Shown: positions 38,033 to 46,058 of the stretch, piece by piece
Layout of the letters: every line of letters starts with the position of its first letter
How positions within the stretch are numbered: position 1 is the first letter of the stretch
Assembly (NCBI RefSeq): GCF_001641615.1
Contig: NZ_LRRU01000019.1
Coordinates: 466,064 to 530,063 of the forward strand
Direction: 5' to 3'
DNA: 64,000 nt
Origin: Pseudoalteromonas gelatinilytica
GTDB taxonomy: Bacteria; Pseudomonadota; Gammaproteobacteria; Enterobacterales; Alteromonadaceae
The notes under the pieces: generated by a model
Seen by the model: only the letters and a program-made list of their open reading frames with translations
What the model was told of the DNA's origin: nothing
Database searches by the model: none
Translations under genes and position numbers: made by a program

Positions 38033-38142
38033 TTGTACTGTGCAAATACGTATGTTTGTTAGGTGATAACTTATAGTTATTGATTAATTTTTTACAACGA
38101 AAAGTGAATGCATACTTAGAAAAAGACACGATCACATAGTAA

Positions 38143-39306
38143 TCAAGCAATCTGAATCATATTAAAATCTGTTGATGTGTTTTTACCAGAATCTTTCGAA
38201 TGGTAAAGAGCTTGGTCAGCTCGCTCTAAAACACACTCCCATGACTTGTCAGCTTTTGAACAAAGAGAATACCCAATGCTTACAGTTACTTTTAGACTGT
38301 CGCTTCCTGTATCTATTTCAGTACAACTTATTTTCTTCAAAATTCGATTGGACAAGTTTTCCATAAGGTTATTATCAGCGTTCTTGATGAGAATTAAAAA
38401 CTCTTCACCGCCTAGCCTGAAAGCATAATCACAAGCTCTTACATTACTTTTAGCCCGATCGCATACTTCCTTTATAACTGTGTCTCCAACTGAATGGCCA
38501 TACTTGTCATTTATGCTTTTAAAGTTATCTATGTCAATCAACATGAATCCGAGACAACTGTCGTTACGAAGACACTCACTTTTCATATTCTGTGAGATAC
38601 TATTTAGAACGGTTCTATTAAGCCAGCCGGTTAAATGGTCTGTTATTGCCAGTGCACGTAAATGGGCTTCTTTTTTCCAAAATGAAACAAATGCGAAACT
38701 TATAGTAAGCATAAAAAACAAACATACCAAAGCCAAAGTACCTGAAGTTTGAATAAATTCGCTACCGAATATTTCAAGTTTCTCACCAAAAGCAATTACA
38801 ACACCCCTAATAATTAATTGGAGGGTGAAAATGAATAACACGATCATCAATAAGATGAATGAATTTCTGTCCTCTTGCTTTCTATGCTTCCATAATGTGT
38901 AAAAGCTTAAAGAGTTTATAAAAATCAGGAATGGATAAAAAATTAAAAGCCGAAGGTTAACTGACTGTATAACAGCTGGAATTAGCTGAACCAAATAACT
39001 AATTGCAAGGACACTGGCAACCAACTTCCAATGCGAACGCTTGAGTGTAAGTTGGCTAACACCGCTGTAGATAGCAGTAAAGCCAGCCATATATAAGGCA
39101 TTAGGAGCTGCAGGAAATATGAGCTGGTGTGTTTCAAGGTAAGCAGAACAAATGGCTATAACGCCATAAATGCTAAATAAAATAGCCGCAATCATCCAAT
39201 CAAACAAATAACGTTCATTTCTGCTGACGTTATAAAGCAACATGCTAGTTATCATCATAATGATTGCGCAAGCTGCCGCTGCAGCCGTCATGCTTACTTG
39301 GTCCAT
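38143..39306 (-). CDS. Membrane diguanylate cyclase (GGDEF)
   Basis: This enzyme makes cyclic di-GMP from two GTP. The 387-residue protein has about seven predicted membrane helices in the first 215 residues, an integral sensor of MASE-like layout, and a C-terminal GGDEF domain. It starts at DHLTGWLNR, the active site is GGEEF, and an RxxD inhibitory site (RACD) lies five residues before it, so the enzyme should be active and product-inhibited. AGGAGG precedes the ATG at 39306 by nine bases. It lies inside the island, between hairpin DNA and the integron cassette, so it may be cargo that affects host motility or biofilm. Confidence 0.9.
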   Translation of the reverse strand: MDQVSMTAAAAACAIIMMITSMLLYNVSRNERYLFDWMIAAILFSIYGVIAICSAYLETHQLIFPAAPNALYMAGFTAIYSGVSQLTLKRSHWKLVASVLAISYLVQLIPAVIQSVNLRLLIFYPFLIFINSLSFYTLWKHRKQEDRNSFILLMIVLFIFTLQLIIRGVVIAFGEKLEIFGSEFIQTSGTLALVCLFFMLTISFAFVSFWKKEAHLRALAITDHLTGWLNRTVLNSISQNMKSECLRNDSCLGFMLIDIDNFKSINDKYGHSVGDTVIKEVCDRAKSNVRACDYAFRLGGEEFLILIKNADNNLMENLSNRILKKISCTEIDTGSDSLKVTVSIGYSLCSKADKSWECVLERADQALYHSKDSGKNTSTDFNMIQIA

Positions 39307-40014
39307 TTGAGCTATCCTCCTTTGTTCTTATTATTTTATATCATAATAATACAGTTTCTGTAATGTTTGAGGTGCGATTTTATAAACGGTGGTAGTTACT
39401 TCTAGCACATAATATATTGATTTATAGCGTTTCTTCCTTCGCAGTTGTTTTAAACCAAGAACTTCAATTCTTGCTTAAACTATAAACTCTGAAAGCAGTA
39501 AGTTTTGAATGTTGGTAGATTGTTTGTGATCGAGATTTATAATTATTGGTCTACTATTAGAAGACATACTGCTGGGTGAGGTCACCATCATTGATGGTGC
39601 TTTAGGAAGTCGAATAAATTGTCTGGTTGAGAGCAACCGTACGGGCTTTGAGGTGGAACATTTCTGCCCCATTACCATTTAACGCCATTACTCTATAGGT
39701 CGGCCCGGAGAAAACAACGAAAGTTGAACAAACAGAACTAGATAACTGCTGTTCACCTGCTGAATTCCTCTGCCTAGTGGCTTCTGTGCGTATGAAAATA
39801 TAGTTGCTTACCGAGATAAACTTAGGTGTAATGAATACATAATAAGCGCTGAGCAATGCAGGGAAAGCTTACTTAACACTAGGAAAGTGAGAGCCTCCAA
39901 AAAGCAAATTTCCATAGCATAAATAACACCAACTCTGACACACCGAGCAGGTAGCGACTCAGTCCAACAAGCGATTATGCAACACAAACTGCGTGTCGTA
40001 TAAATACTAAAATG
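39307..40014. other. 700-bp gap without recognisable gene
   Basis: Only short frames without ribosome binding sites are present, and their translations resemble nothing I know. A 17-bp perfect inverted repeat (CACCATCA, T, TGATGGTG) lies at 39,583-39,599. The promoter of the diguanylate cyclase should lie at the left side. The right end at G40014 is the proposed left junction of the integron cassette. Confidence 0.4.
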
Positions 40015-40036
40015 TTATATTTCAAAGGAGAGTACA

Positions 40037-40621
40037 TTGCAAAATCAACCTATGAGTAGTGGCGACCAAAGTAAGCTGCTTATTTTTTCACTCTTATTCG
40101 CACCTTCGATAGTTCTTCTGGTCGGCGTTATTCCTGCCATATTTTTGGGCTTTGGCATATATATGATGAAGAAGAATCAAGACTTCTCCAGCATTGATAC
40201 CGCGGTCAAAAACTTTAAGGGGTTTACTTGGATAGCTTTCATTGGCTGCGCTCTGAGTTCTGTTTATTGGGGTATTAAGTATTTCACTCCTGAACAAAGC
40301 TGGTATTACGACGATGAGTTCTTTGGTTCGTTAACATTCGCTGGAATTTCTTTTGCTTATTTAATTATGATTCAGGTTTTATTTTATTCTCCGTTGAATA
40401 GACATAGAGAGTGGGTAGAGGTTAATGGGATATTTTCAACAAAACCCAAATCAGACAAGGCCTCAAAAAGTCACTCAGAGGTGGACATAATAAAAGGAGA
40501 AAAATTGAAGCAATACTCTGTTGCTGACGAATTAACAAAATGGGCTAACCTCAAAGAAAATGGTCATATCTCAGAAGAGGAGTTTCACGAGGCTAGAGCC
40601 AAGCTTTTGAAGCGAAATTGA
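40037..40621 (+). CDS. Membrane protein with C-terminal SHOCT domain
   Basis: This 194-residue protein has three to four predicted membrane helices in the first 125 residues (for example IVLLVGVIPAIFLGFGIYM). A linker follows, then a short C-terminal helical domain of SHOCT type (ELTKWANLKENGHISEEEF, about 165-190). SHOCT modules are common in small membrane and oligomerising proteins of unknown role. TTG at 40037 is preferred because AAGGAG lies exactly six bases before it; ATG 40052 is too far from it. It is the first gene of the integron cassette, and the next gene follows after 3 bp. Confidence 0.65.
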   Translation: MQNQPMSSGDQSKLLIFSLLFAPSIVLLVGVIPAIFLGFGIYMMKKNQDFSSIDTAVKNFKGFTWIAFIGCALSSVYWGIKYFTPEQSWYYDDEFFGSLTFAGISFAYLIMIQVLFYSPLNRHREWVEVNGIFSTKPKSDKASKSHSEVDIIKGEKLKQYSVADELTKWANLKENGHISEEEFHEARAKLLKRN

Positions 40622-40624
40622 AAA

Positions 40625-41137
40625 ATGAATATTTACAACAAGCAATTCGAACTACGTGAAGAAACACCAGCTTATTGGCATAATAAGTCAAATGATCTTT
40701 TAGTCTCTGCTCGCACTCTATGGGAAGCAATGCAAAAAGAAAAAGCGTTAGTGATAAACTGCTGGTCAACGTACAAAATGTTAATGGGAATGTCCTTTGA
40801 ACTTCTTTTCAAGGCGCATTGCGTAGGCGCAGGTATTCGCTTCGGGGCTACCCATGACTTAGTGTCATTGGCAAAAACCGCAAACTTCACAATGTCCAAA
40901 GAAGAAAATGGAATTTTAAATGTTCTTTCGGAATATATTATTTGGGACGGAAGGTATCCGATCCCAAAGAGGTCACAGCATCTTGAAAATCATTGGAAAA
41001 GCCAAAACAAAGTGCTTAACGACAAGAAGAGTCTTGGCGGTTTAACGGTTCAAACCCCCAATGATAAATTAGATTTTGATAACTTACTTCCTATTTGGCG
41101 CAACTATTCAGAGCTTTACATGGATAGATACAATTGA
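40625..41137 (+). CDS. HEPN-like protein of the integron cassette
   Basis: The 170-residue helical protein has a HEPN-like pattern: a helix with WSTYKMLMGMSFELLFKAH, then THDLVSLAK, then WDGRYPIP near residue 115. HEPN proteins of this shape bind nucleotides or act as RNases or accessory proteins in toxin-antitoxin and defence modules. No R-x4-6-H catalytic motif is evident, so it may be non-catalytic. It follows the SHOCT membrane gene by 3 bp, and attC begins right after the stop, as is normal for cassette genes. The pair could be a membrane/HEPN stress or phage-response module. Confidence 0.55.
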   Translation: MNIYNKQFELREETPAYWHNKSNDLLVSARTLWEAMQKEKALVINCWSTYKMLMGMSFELLFKAHCVGAGIRFGATHDLVSLAKTANFTMSKEENGILNVLSEYIIWDGRYPIPKRSQHLENHWKSQNKVLNDKKSLGGLTVQTPNDKLDFDNLLPIWRNYSELYMDRYN

Positions 41138-41138
41138 A

Positions 41139-41207
41139 GTATAACAGGTTGCTCCACACCGAAAAATTACTCGCTGTGCTCCTAATTTTTCGGTGAGCAA
41201 GGCGTTA
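41139..41207 (+). repeat. attC recombination site
   Basis: Outer cores GTATAAC and GTTA bound an inverted repeat. The inner arms are TTGCTC/GAGCAA and ACCGAAAAATTA/TAATTTTTCGGT, with three extra bases (CAC) on one side only and a 13-base terminal loop. This asymmetric folded layout with AAC and GTT ends is diagnostic of integron attC sites, in which unpaired bases mark the strand that is recombined. It is about 69 bp long and lies 2 bp after the HEPN-like gene. Confidence 0.8.
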
Positions 41208-41826
41208 CAGAATAAATACTCTAACGTGTTTTTGTCCATAGACAAGTTATAAATATAGCTCGCCGTTAACCCAAAATGCGTTAATGTGAGCCTTGATGTG
41301 TATAGATTGAAAGGATGATTACGATTGTAGTTGCAATTCAGAGAGCTGCTTTGATATCAAACTCTTTTGATGAGAAATGACCTTTCATTAATATACTCTC
41401 ACTTTGATAGTTTCTTTACTAACCCTATTTTAAACTTTTAATGAGTGCAACAAGAGTTGAGAAATATTGTGTTGTTGTTCGGGTTGATATTAATAATTGT
41501 TTTTCATTAAGAGAATGTCTATTAGGGTACACAGTATAGCCATTCAGGCATATTATTGTCGAAATAGTGGAGAGATCAAATACTATGAAATGTCTTCTCT
41601 TCGGTTAAAACCACCGACATTGAGTTAATTTGAAATCATAGCTACCACAGATATATTTCAATTTTTCTTAAGATCTAGGATTTTTAAGCGCAGTGTCAAC
41701 TCTAATCGACATCTGTCCAAATATGAGCTAGAAGCAACGCCTTGCTTAACATCTTATGTGTCTGTTTGATCCTTCCTACAAGAGACCTTAATCAAAAGAT
41801 CTCATCTTATTAACTCAGAACGAACT
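41208..41826. other. 620-bp gap, nothing recognised
   Basis: AT-rich sequence between attC and the stop of the first recombinase. No frame with a ribosome binding site, no clear hairpin terminator and no tRNA-like fold was seen. Confidence 0.4.
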
Positions 41827-43395
41827 TTATATTCTTAAAGTGGTGCATTCTTTTTGAGTGAACGGGATTAAATGTTCGGGTAGTTTTATAGGTAATTCAG
41901 GTTCAATAATACGTTTACCTTTTTTAAATGCATCTAAACCTTGCAGAATAATAGCTTCATTAATTAAAAAATATTTATACGCCGTTTCTGCTCTTAAATC
42001 ATAAAGCTCATCGTTTTTATCGTAATGCTCTCCTGAACGGTCATGCTCTCTTCCTGTATGTCCAAGTATTAGTTTTGACTCAATTTGCGCATTGCTGAGT
42101 GAATAACCTTCTTCTTTCACTAGATATCTGACAACATTGGTTTTAGCGTGCTGTCTAAGTAAGGTAAAGCAAGGTCCAGCTGTACCTTTCACATAAAGGT
42201 CTTCCAGAGATGATTTATAGATGTCATTAGGGCAAATCAACATGAAGTATTCCCTTAAAGAATTATACGGCATCGCTTTAGTACAGTCTTTAAAGCTGAA
42301 AAATAAGTACTCATTAGGCTTATCAGGATGTAGTGATAACTGATTTTTGATTATTTTTGTCATTTGCAGAGTTAACTTTATTTTGAATTGTCCTTTGTTC
42401 TTCATGGCTCCTTCTTTGGTCATTGTGGATTTTGGATAAGTTATATATTTAGGGTTCTTTAAGTTATCTAGATAGCTTGTTTTTAATTCAATTATGTTAA
42501 CTGGCCTAACAGCTGTGAAAGCCATTAAAAGTACAGCGTTCTTTTTTTGGGTGTTGGGCTCCTCTTCTAATCTATACATGAGCTTTGAAATACCCTCGCC
42601 ATCGGTATACCCATTAAAAGTAGACTTGATAGGTGCTGGAATATAGCTAGTACGAATTTCGTTGATAGATTTATTTTTAAGATTTAGCTTTTCTGAAGCA
42701 AAAGCAAATAATGATTTAACTCTATTAGAAACATCATATGTATAATTTGCTTTCTTTTCTTCATATAGTTTGTCAAAAGCAGACTTTATTTCTTCTTGGC
42801 TTATATCTAAGAACTTTGCAGAACTGCCAATTACATTCACAAAGGCATTTATTTGTGATGAATATGTTTTGATAGTTTTTTTAGAAATGACTCTTTTATC
42901 ATTTTCATGTTTCATTGAGAGGCTTTCAATGAATTTTTCAGCAACTTCTCCAAGCGTTTGACCAGACAGTTGATTATCAAAAATGATGGCGCTAAGAGTT
43001 GCAGCTTCAGCGACTGTCATTGTTTTATTGTTACCCAATAAAGGCTTTTTTAACTTTCGATGGCCAGGGTAGTATGCAAAAAATTGTACGATTCCATTTA
43101 AGTTAAAAATGAACCTTAATTTGCTTTTGCTACAATATTTAGATTTCCTATAATCTTTTTTGGGTTGGCCTGGTTCTGGTTCCGGGTATTTAATTGATAC
43201 AGCGTATTCAGATAATATTAAAATATCTTTATCACTATATGGTGGTTTAATACTGTCGAATTTCGACTTGCTAATACACTCACTTTCACTTTGCTTCTCA
43301 GACTCATTTTCACTTGTTATCTTAGATAGGTTTCTAATTTTATCTAATATTCTGCTTATATTATTTTTCTTAAACTTCTTGTTGTTTTTTTTCAT
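41827..43395 (-). CDS. Tyrosine recombinase / integrase 1
   Basis: This is a 522-residue site-specific recombinase. A Lys-rich N-terminus and an arm-binding-like domain (FIFNLNGIVQFFAYYPG) precede a core-binding domain (about 170-260) and a C-terminal catalytic domain. The first Arg lies in AFTAVRPVN. Box II reads CFTLLRQHAK, with Thr where H-x-x-R integrases have His. The later His lies in LGHTG and the nucleophile is probably the Tyr of EHYDKND. It is clearly a paralogue of the next recombinase: both share QKKNA/HQKNA, R-P-[VI]-N-I, MKN[KQ], [VM]KG[TS]AG and YDK. It is longer than typical phage integrases. Confidence 0.85.
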   Translation of the reverse strand: MKKNNKKFKKNNISRILDKIRNLSKITSENESEKQSESECISKSKFDSIKPPYSDKDILILSEYAVSIKYPEPEPGQPKKDYRKSKYCSKSKLRFIFNLNGIVQFFAYYPGHRKLKKPLLGNNKTMTVAEAATLSAIIFDNQLSGQTLGEVAEKFIESLSMKHENDKRVISKKTIKTYSSQINAFVNVIGSSAKFLDISQEEIKSAFDKLYEEKKANYTYDVSNRVKSLFAFASEKLNLKNKSINEIRTSYIPAPIKSTFNGYTDGEGISKLMYRLEEEPNTQKKNAVLLMAFTAVRPVNIIELKTSYLDNLKNPKYITYPKSTMTKEGAMKNKGQFKIKLTLQMTKIIKNQLSLHPDKPNEYLFFSFKDCTKAMPYNSLREYFMLICPNDIYKSSLEDLYVKGTAGPCFTLLRQHAKTNVVRYLVKEEGYSLSNAQIESKLILGHTGREHDRSGEHYDKNDELYDLRAETAYKYFLINEAIILQGLDAFKKGKRIIEPELPIKLPEHLIPFTQKECTTLRI

Positions 43396-43897: not shown

Positions 43898-45556
43898 TTA
43901 AACAACAATATCATCAAGGTAACTTTCGATTACAGTTCTACCATCTTTAGTCAGAATTAACTCTTTAACTGATTTTCCTGTATCGCCAAAAGGCTGATTT
44001 ATGAATTGAATGTATGCACCTTTATGGACAAGAGATGCTTTTATTCGCTCTCTTAGCGCTTTTTTATGTTCCTTATCTTTGATTATTTTTTGTTGGTTTA
44101 CATGAAATGCTGTAGGCCTTAACTCTAAGCTTTGAAGCTCATGGACTCGTTTTAAAATGCTGACCTCGTGTAACTTAAATACATTAAACTTAAGTTTTGT
44201 TGAAGTGCCGTAGAGCTCTTCAGATTTATCGTAGTTAAGCCCATTCGGATCATCAGACTTTCTCAAATGATGAAGTGCTAAACGGGTTAAGTCTTCTGCA
44301 TGCTTAAAGTGGTAGCCGTTTGATACCATCAGCTCTTTTGTATTGGATTTAAAAAAGCTTCTACACATAGTACAAAATGCACCCGCAGAGCCTTTCATTA
44401 CAATCTGTTCGATATCACCTTTTACTGCATCAAATGGAGAATAGTCTTTGATAATTTTATCGAGGGAGCGTTTAGAAAATTGCTTCATAGGGTCGCGTGG
44501 TTGAAGAAAAATGAACTCTTGATTGCAATTAGGTCGTGCCGATTCCATCCATGCCCTTTGTTCAAGGATAATAGTTCGCATCATTTTTGTTAGTGGGAGT
44601 CTGTATTCTTTTTGGTTTTTCATTTCACCACGTACACCTACGATGGATGACGGAAAAGTTATTAAGGTCGGAAAGGTAATACTATTCAGCCATGACCATT
44701 TCATTTGAGGAATGTTGATAGGCCTCAAGCCCGTTAAAATCATAAACCTGGCTGCGTTCTTCTGGTGAATGCATGGCGTAGTTGCAAGGTTGATCCACAA
44801 CTCTGCAATTGAATCTAAGTCAGTGTAGGCTTGGCACGGGCGGGGAGTATCAACTCGATCCGAAACATAATAATCATCGATGTCAGCAGCAGGATTACGG
44901 CCATTGTTAAACTTATTTTTGGCGAACTTCCATATACGCCTTATTTGAGCAAATAGCTCTATGGCTTGGTTGTTGGATTCGCTAGCAATAATTTTATCAA
45001 TGATTCGCTCAAGATCCCCTGCCGTAATACTTTGAAATCTCGTTTTCATATTAAAGTACTGCTTAAGCTTTTTTACTCTGCACTTATATGTTCTCAATGA
45101 ACCGGCTGCAAACTTTGTTGGTGCGAGTAAATGTCGGTTTGTCAGGTTCTGCTCATATTCTTTAAAAATAGTGTTTAAATCGGCGAATATCGTTCTTCCC
45201 TCTAATATCGTTTGTGTAAGCTCTCTTGCTTTTGCAATGGTGAGTTCTGGTAACTCCCCTAGCTTTACGTTTCGGATCTCTAATTTTTTTGGGAAATTAG
45301 AATAGAAGATGACCTTACCTTTTGGGGTGAAAACGAGCCGTAAATTGTGTTGTTGCTCATATTTAGACAAACGAACCAAGGGCTTATTTTTAATCCCTTG
45401 TTTTAAAGCAACTTTTCTCTCAAAATTTGAAATTATTTGAATCGCAGTAACACACTTTTTTATGTACAACATTGAAAAAGGTGCCTTCGTCTCTCTCCAA
45501 ACGGCTTTTGCTTTAATGTATTCGGCTTTTGTAATGGGTTTATTCGTGTTTTTCAT
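43898..45556 (-). CDS. Tyrosine recombinase / integrase 2
   Basis: This 552-residue recombinase lies at the right end of the island. It has an arm-binding domain like those of P4-type integrases (LRLVFTPKGKVIFYSNFP, then ELPELTIAKARELTQ), a core-binding domain with SLRTYKCRVKKLKQYF, and a catalytic domain. The first Arg is in LTGLRPINIPQMKW, box II is FCTMCRSFFKSN (again Thr instead of His), the late His is in LALHHLRK, and the probable nucleophile is the Tyr in LNYDK. Being nearest the core genome, it is the best candidate for the enzyme that integrates the island. Upstream lie about 250 bp with an FNR-like box and probable att DNA. Confidence 0.87.
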   Translation of the reverse strand: MKNTNKPITKAEYIKAKAVWRETKAPFSMLYIKKCVTAIQIISNFERKVALKQGIKNKPLVRLSKYEQQHNLRLVFTPKGKVIFYSNFPKKLEIRNVKLGELPELTIAKARELTQTILEGRTIFADLNTIFKEYEQNLTNRHLLAPTKFAAGSLRTYKCRVKKLKQYFNMKTRFQSITAGDLERIIDKIIASESNNQAIELFAQIRRIWKFAKNKFNNGRNPAADIDDYYVSDRVDTPRPCQAYTDLDSIAELWINLATTPCIHQKNAARFMILTGLRPINIPQMKWSWLNSITFPTLITFPSSIVGVRGEMKNQKEYRLPLTKMMRTIILEQRAWMESARPNCNQEFIFLQPRDPMKQFSKRSLDKIIKDYSPFDAVKGDIEQIVMKGSAGAFCTMCRSFFKSNTKELMVSNGYHFKHAEDLTRLALHHLRKSDDPNGLNYDKSEELYGTSTKLKFNVFKLHEVSILKRVHELQSLELRPTAFHVNQQKIIKDKEHKKALRERIKASLVHKGAYIQFINQPFGDTGKSVKELILTKDGRTVIESYLDDIVV

Positions 45557-45803: not shown

Positions 45804-46058
45804 ATGGCATTACTCATCAATAACAAATGTATTAACTGTGATATGTGTGATCCTGAGTGCCCGAATGAGGCTATTTATATGGGCGCGAAGATATATCAAA
45901 TAGACCCAAATAAATGCACTGAGTGTGTTGGGCATTATGATAATCCTACATGTGTTAGTGTGTGTCCTATTGATTGCATCAAGCCAGATCCAAATCACCG
46001 TGAAACTTTAGATGATCTGGCTGAGAAATACGTTAAATTGACCTCCCAAGCTTCTTAG
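45804..46058 (+). CDS. yfhL: YfhL-type 2[4Fe-4S] ferredoxin
   Basis: This is an 84-residue soluble ferredoxin with two cluster motifs. The first is CINCDMCDPECP. The second is CTEC, then an eight-residue loop before CVSVCP, the expanded loop of the Allochromatium-type ferredoxins to which YfhL belongs. All cluster Cys are present. CGAGGG lies seven bases before the ATG. It acts as a low-potential electron carrier in the cytoplasm; partners are not evident from neighbours. It is the first core-type gene right of the island. Confidence 0.93.
   Translation: MALLINNKCINCDMCDPECPNEAIYMGAKIYQIDPNKCTECVGHYDNPTCVSVCPIDCIKPDPNHRETLDDLAEKYVKLTSQAS

Follow-up and report, generated by a model that had tools for sequence, protein, structure and literature searches.

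Cassettes bearing attC sites are found as well outside of any integrase-bearing integron, where they are described as CALINs or SALINs. SALINs have been counted, for example, in Shewanella, with 115 in 41 genomes according to the accessible portion of PMC9229058. The locus considered here lies within what we refer to as the window, i.e., the whole 64,000-nucleotide stretch of Pseudoalteromonas gelatinilytica DNA that was analysed (contig NZ_LRRU01000019.1, positions 466,064 to 530,063). It resembles CALINs and SALINs in that an attC-bearing cassette is located outside of any integron possessing an integrase and, with only one attC counted, it would be a SALIN. Unlike CALINs and SALINs, however, here an IS91-type attC-like end stands directly before the cassette while a specific repeat, termed R, stands directly behind it.

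Cassettes are located outside of integrons also upon insertion at attG sites, as described in the accessible part of PMC12444791, and to that extent the locus is similar. Its flanks, however, are integron-type repeats rather than a native target.

Among mobile elements known to insert within the attC hairpin are IS1111-attC elements and group IIC-attC introns. The element from which the cassette's left flank derives, which is of IS91 type, resembles these elements, which are named in the accessible portion of PMC9229058, in having integron sites as targets but sits instead at the crossover itself, as cassettes do. It is like other members of the IS91 family in encoding a Y2 transposase with a zinc-binding domain, scoring above the curated cut-off, and is unlike them in its tyrosine recombinase gene, in its position at attI/attC crossovers, and in its attC-like 3' end. 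Within the accessible text of the literature searched, no IS91-family element with an attC-like end was found, bar a remark on ISShvi3, an IS91-like element in a Shewanella integron (PMC9229058). ISShvi3 is one case, its ends not being described in the accessible text, whereas here the ends, the attI position and the genus-wide distribution are given. Relative to that same, partly accessible literature, an IS91-family element that is built like a gene cassette apparently is new, with the ISShvi3 remark pointing the same way.

Our reading of the locus, to which we assign a probability of roughly 0.7, is that a relic integron array lacking an integrase, i.e., a CALIN, occupies the window from around 39526 to 41276 or beyond, with a truncated IS91-type element as its first cassette. 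As bears on its being a CALIN, intI is absent nearby, and one canonical attC is accompanied by one attC-like site that is missed by the attC model. The features are as follows:

39526 to 39705, no strand: sequence separating the native flank from the IS91-type remnant; identity with genome G012 stops at 39525
39706 to 39750, plus strand: possible degraded 3' tail of an IS91-type transposase gene, judged by eye against other copies and unscored
39751 to 40014, plus strand: 3' end of the IS91-family element (B), 264 bp; a dispersed repeat, found in full copies just behind the transposase gene
39962 to 40020, plus strand: 59-bp attC-like site ending B, GTCCAAC ... G/TTATAT (the slash here and below marks the crossover), its last six bases being those of the next cassette
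40015 to 41204, plus strand: intact two-gene cassette, each junction backed by other copies
40037 to 40621, plus strand: gene for a 194-aa membrane protein with a SHOCT domain, TTG start as listed
40625 to 41137, plus strand: gene for a 170-aa, weakly HEPN-like protein, with a relative in Alteromonas plasmid pAlt76 (42.5%)
41139 to 41210, plus strand: canonical attC, R'' GTATAAC and R' GTTACAG, its final six bases being part of R
41205 to 41238, plus strand: core of repeat R, TTACYGAATAAATACTCTAACGTGTTTTTGTCCA; similarity extends to about 41276, and in CO133X to 41550

The cassette, its attC, and its surroundings

The preliminary description of this DNA had the cassette ending in a textbook attC site, and the covariance model used here, built from 20 attCs of arrays in intI-bearing loci, agrees, scoring 41139-41210 at 29.2 bits (E 5.8e-4). 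The bottom strand of this site folds at -15.9 kcal/mol (z -4.56), with 0 of 200 shuffles folding as well. A scan of the whole window with the same model at E<=1 gave no match besides this one, and no match to Rfam was seen in the window at gathering scores. The cassette, that is, possesses a canonical attC at its 3' end along with a G/TT crossover at both ends, and would presumably be excised or inserted by an integron integrase.

The first of its two genes does encode a SHOCT domain, with a score exceeding the Pfam cut-off. The second gene had been called HEPN-like, a likeness which is weak (PF05168 at E 0.079, 13.6 bits versus a cut-off of 22). No relative of its protein was found among the 98 other genomes searched and none was confirmed in a wider search of genome contigs; relatives are present in 4 plasmid records. 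Plasmid records resembling the cassette number 625 and, among the matches listed, 19 of 20 cover the attC part only, at 86-88% identity.

The cassette had also been placed inside a defence island. There indeed are defence-type genes in the window, but those tested are found at 0.8-30.6 kb, with the cassette about 9 kb beyond them. They form a run (window 785-30627) within which nine proteins were scanned, including a type I methyltransferase, a BREX/DISARM-type helicase, and HerA/mad8-like, MkoA-like and MkoB-like proteins. At window 41827-43395 and 43898-45556 are tandem, large, tyrosine-recombinase-like genes on the minus strand, scoring slightly below the Pfam Phage_integrase cut-off. These precede a ferredoxin-like ORF at 45804 and perhaps are the integration module of an island.

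That no intI is near was confirmed, and this for the whole of the organism's own draft genome (23 contigs, 4.8 Mb), where the best TIGR02249 score is 78.7 bits versus a cut-off of 265 and no integron integrase was found at E<=1e-60. Across the genus, integron integrases are present in 82 of 108 genomes, with none above cut-off in this one. The same genome has at least 32 attC-model matches, on contigs C9, C11, C13, C16 and C18, as seen upon scoring 150 of 1858 candidates, a list from which the window's own attC is absent. One stretch, C16:20001-40000 (locus L113), holds a big attC array, with 18 model matches at C16:26521-39562, in which an integrase was not found. Modules resembling attI (profile A), and lacking an intI match in the sequence around them, are seen at L015, L111, L113 and L114 as well as at several loci of other genomes, some of them preceding cassettes; these are platforms devoid of an integrase.

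The left junction and the IS91-family element

The left end of the cassette had been placed at G40014/T40015. This is right because all 26 of the BLAST copies which reach the end of the flank (the window being counted among them, with 2 more rows partial) continue with TT, and because 73 of 78 profile-found copies, with ends located by an error-tolerant motif, end at G/TT. The flank nevertheless is non-native DNA. Its 705 bp (39310-40014) are matched in 65 of 108 genus genomes, with the listed places consisting mostly of the final 270 bases and with most listed matches stopping within the last three bases of the flank. As five candidates were scored per genome, copy numbers are lower bounds. 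One listed match, at 98% in G012, is to the native flank instead. Window 38091-39525 is 97.84% identical with G012 and similarity ends at 39525, past which G012 displays different sequence, by eye again with an attI-like module.

The identity of the flank is seen from full copies of an element (loci L143, L144, L146, L150, L152, L155 and L161). These extend from a TTGAACTAAGCCGC start through the gene for a 277-aa tyrosine recombinase (its frame broken in L152) and then that for a transposase of about 363 aa to the sequence of the left flank. The transposase scores 398.3 bits with NCBIfam IS91 NF033538 (cut-off 125) and has the Pfam domains Y2_Tnp and Zn_Tnp_IS91. The recombinase matches Xer as well as integron-integrase models, none above its own cut-off, with TIGR02249 giving 170.9 bits in two stretches, below the 265 required. 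From the window itself the IS91 transposase gene is absent, and in its own genome no transposase relative at E<=1e-60, and no full IS91-type element, was found. In an order-wide search, 14 of 295 genomes gave a transposase match at E<=1e-60. Among 21 such loci, 7 were inspected (48-56% identity), with the right end present in 7 of 7 and the left end in 6 of 7; in the seventh locus the recombinase was not found. A copy beside a truncated intI (L142) had prompted the idea of the IS91-type end being an attI. This was rejected because full copies have the transposase immediately before that end, which explains it better.

Distinct left ends of the element number 18, each preceded by G, 10 of them from a first round of searching and 8 from a second, in which 11 of 19 stretches lacked a left end; a motif match in L225 at 1310 was left out as not a true element end. 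At attI/attC crossovers are 15 of the 18. These consist of 14 at attI, i.e., 11 adjoining a match to the attI profile plus 3 (L077, L229, L230) adjoining attI sites of other types, as judged by eye against other attI sites rather than on the basis of the profile, and of 1 (L145) adjoining an attC of 83.6 bits. This attI comparison covers Pseudoalteromonas copies. The remaining 3 left ends (L143, L227, L228), all from genome G099, have one common, non-attI flank of 60 bases or more, as would be seen had neighbouring DNA been taken along during transposition.

IS91 elements have a hairpin at their origin end. From a different perspective, the element might not be a cassette at all, with its own transposase targeting GTT-type sites, attI/attC crossovers included, and B having jumped before an existing cassette. 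An IS91-family transposase certainly is encoded, and the common flank of the three G099 copies fits with rolling-circle transposition past the left end. We nevertheless view this as somewhat unlikely. The 15 of 18 left ends are found exactly at attI/attC crossovers, the TTGAAC start of the element agrees with the TTRRRY of cassette starts, and the right end has R-box-like motifs flanking a covarying hairpin, all of which argue against such jumping.

That hairpin, on which the reading as a relic array draws for its first member, is a 58-64-bp GTCCAAC...GTTR structure displaying compensatory changes. Its length is 59 bp in 62 of 73 distinct right ends (range 58-64), with RYYYAAC in front in 71 of 73, GTTR behind in 71 of 73, and full GTTRRRY in 25 of 73, the RYYYAAC and GTTR counts being partly built in because ends had been chosen for their close resemblance to GTCCAAC and for the TT that comes next. 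Across 17 aligned ends from four genera, 91.2% of cells are paired versus 79.9% in shuffles, cells with double changes number 32 versus 10.4, and the covariation score is 0.386 versus 0.174, values that in each case none of 500 shuffles reached. The excess is modest for pairs showing a double change (8 versus 5.5, with 13 of 500 shuffles as high) and weak for pair types (15 versus 14.1, with 189 of 500 as high). In 12 of the 17 sequences one of the pairs does not form, and slid registers are 25-46% paired. We use here the term 'attC-like' because pairing of L boxes is not evident, because the 59-bp end gives no match to the attC covariance model, and because the window copy folds weakly, i.e., at -4.1 kcal/mol (without shuffles).

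The 78 copies less 15, for which either the locus was unsearched or there was less than 3 kb of downstream sequence, leaves 63 IS91-type ends to be considered with regard to what follows them. Within the 3 kb downstream, 38 of these 63 have an attC scoring 24 bits or more on the same strand, whereas none of the 63 has one on the opposite strand and 4 of 63 have one upstream, with the downstream count dropping matches below 24 bits as well as matches overlapped by a better one on the other strand. The other 25 have no model attC within 3 kb; by eye, L148 and L149 have an attC of another type, and in L159 an opposite-strand gene comes next. A home-made attC scorer gave same-strand matches in 29 of 76 copies versus 6 of 76 for the other strand but is weak, and the covariance model was used instead for the evidence counts.

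The right junction and repeat R

The right junction, too, is as had been described, that is, at G41204/T41205. Pseudoalteromonas sp. CO133X is 92.6% identical over window 41201-41550 with other cassettes to the left, i.e., in this stretch (L053, the same as L115 of G134) two different cassettes come before R, their attCs scoring 56.5 and 43.2 bits. Matches to window 41195-41275 occur in 34 of the 108 genomes of the genus, that of the window counted, and in many of the copies from those 34 genomes R stands in register directly after the attC of some different cassette. The 19 stretches that a repeat from the window picked out in named genomes are, each of them, from Pseudoalteromonas. To put numbers to this, 20 copies of R in 19 loci were picked by pattern, regardless of attC. 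A model attC directly precedes R in 11 of the 20 at 24 bits or more and in 13 of 20 at 20 bits or more, the two extra copies having a preceding attC at 20-21 bits. The 7 others lack a preceding model attC, with some showing another attC type by eye. R ends arrays both with an integrase (L100, L101) and without.

In L098 and L099, R is found slightly past the 3' end of intI with the array on the far side, that is, as two integron units back to back. Beyond R, window 41250-41550 is shared with CO133X, there in a different gene neighbourhood, with part of it (41425-41504) found also in G014, perhaps representing a further dispersed repeat.

Repeats of this sort invite the idea that the whole block moved between R-family copies, e.g., by homologous recombination, with the cassette carried passively. 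The gene neighbourhood beside the right flank in CO133X does differ from that of the window, partial R-like repeats are found also upstream of attI-like modules in several loci, and the left breakpoint is identical in G012, where another unit begins. To the left of the cassette in the window, however, no R-like repeat was found, and we consider such a block move to be unlikely.

The preliminary description had instead proposed insertion at a secondary site, which would be a free cassette circle recombining once into an attG-type site of the genome, distinct from attI and attC alike, and remaining there. The cassette indeed is complete, with one canonical attC, and its genome lacks intI. Integration at attG also is known in E. 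coli (PMC12444791, accessible part). Both flanks nevertheless are integron-tied repeats rather than native DNA, and a joined B-R site is seen in 0 of 78 B copies, making this very unlikely. The empty site that had been proposed as a check, with 40014 joined to 41205, was not found, none of the 78 left ends listed being followed by R. Nor was an empty native site found in relatives, with the sole genome sharing the native left flank, G012, having different sequence there. That R alone might be a native hot spot was rejected. The existence of empty attI-R sites was rejected as well: across the 108 genomes, a pattern for attI-A joined to R matched once, with 3 mismatches, which is unconvincing.

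What stands from the earlier account are both cassette ends along with placement of the cassette outside of any integrase-bearing integron. Its being solitary and inserted at a secondary site are without support because the flanking DNA on either side is part of an integron structure, the left being an attC-like IS91-type end and the right following other attCs in the 11 of 20 sampled copies just described. It was also held that no other attC is near, yet the left flank ends in the attC-like site at 39962-40020, which the attC model does not detect. An adjacent second attC or intI had been named as contrary to the earlier account; of these, the attC-like site is present and an adjacent intI is not.

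A probable relic array and its implications

A relic array is the most economical reading of the locus, with a lone cassette at a secondary site unlikely. The array's first member would be what is left, at the 3' end, of an IS91-family element built like a cassette. In full copies this element consists, in order, of G/TTGAAC, a gene for an IntI/Xer-like tyrosine recombinase, a gene for an IS91 (Y2) transposase, and an attC-like end of about 59 bp. The intact two-gene cassette would be the second member, joined at the G/TT crossover of the neighbouring, attC-like end of the IS91-type element. Closing the array would be R, which closes other arrays of the genus as well. Presumably the joins were made by a tyrosine recombinase, whether IntI or the element's own, with an integrase having acted in trans or since been lost. 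The left part of the IS91-type element probably was lost after joining.

Going by sequence, the attC-like end may be used by an integrase, by the element's own recombinase or by its transposase, each of which is a candidate, and putative rolling-circle transposition may proceed from the element's origin end. More tentatively, and as a proposal we hold to be possible rather than probable, this could be a rolling-circle, IS91-type family whose origin end serves also as an integron attC, such that an integrase would move the element as a cassette and its own enzymes would move it as a transposon. If true, then an element leaving integrons by jumping would provide, at various places in the genome, new sites at which cassettes could land. 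This would explain the scattered single cassettes of marine Pseudoalteromonas, that of the window included. Single cassettes without an integrase are common, as with the 115 in 41 Shewanella genomes noted above (PMC9229058, accessible portion), and here a definite IS91-type end directly precedes the cassette of the window, as well as cassettes in many other loci (the 38 of 63 copies above). Should the 59-bp end function as an attC, integron cassettes and rolling-circle transposition would be linked within a single element family, and cassettes would have a way out of integrons and into other places.
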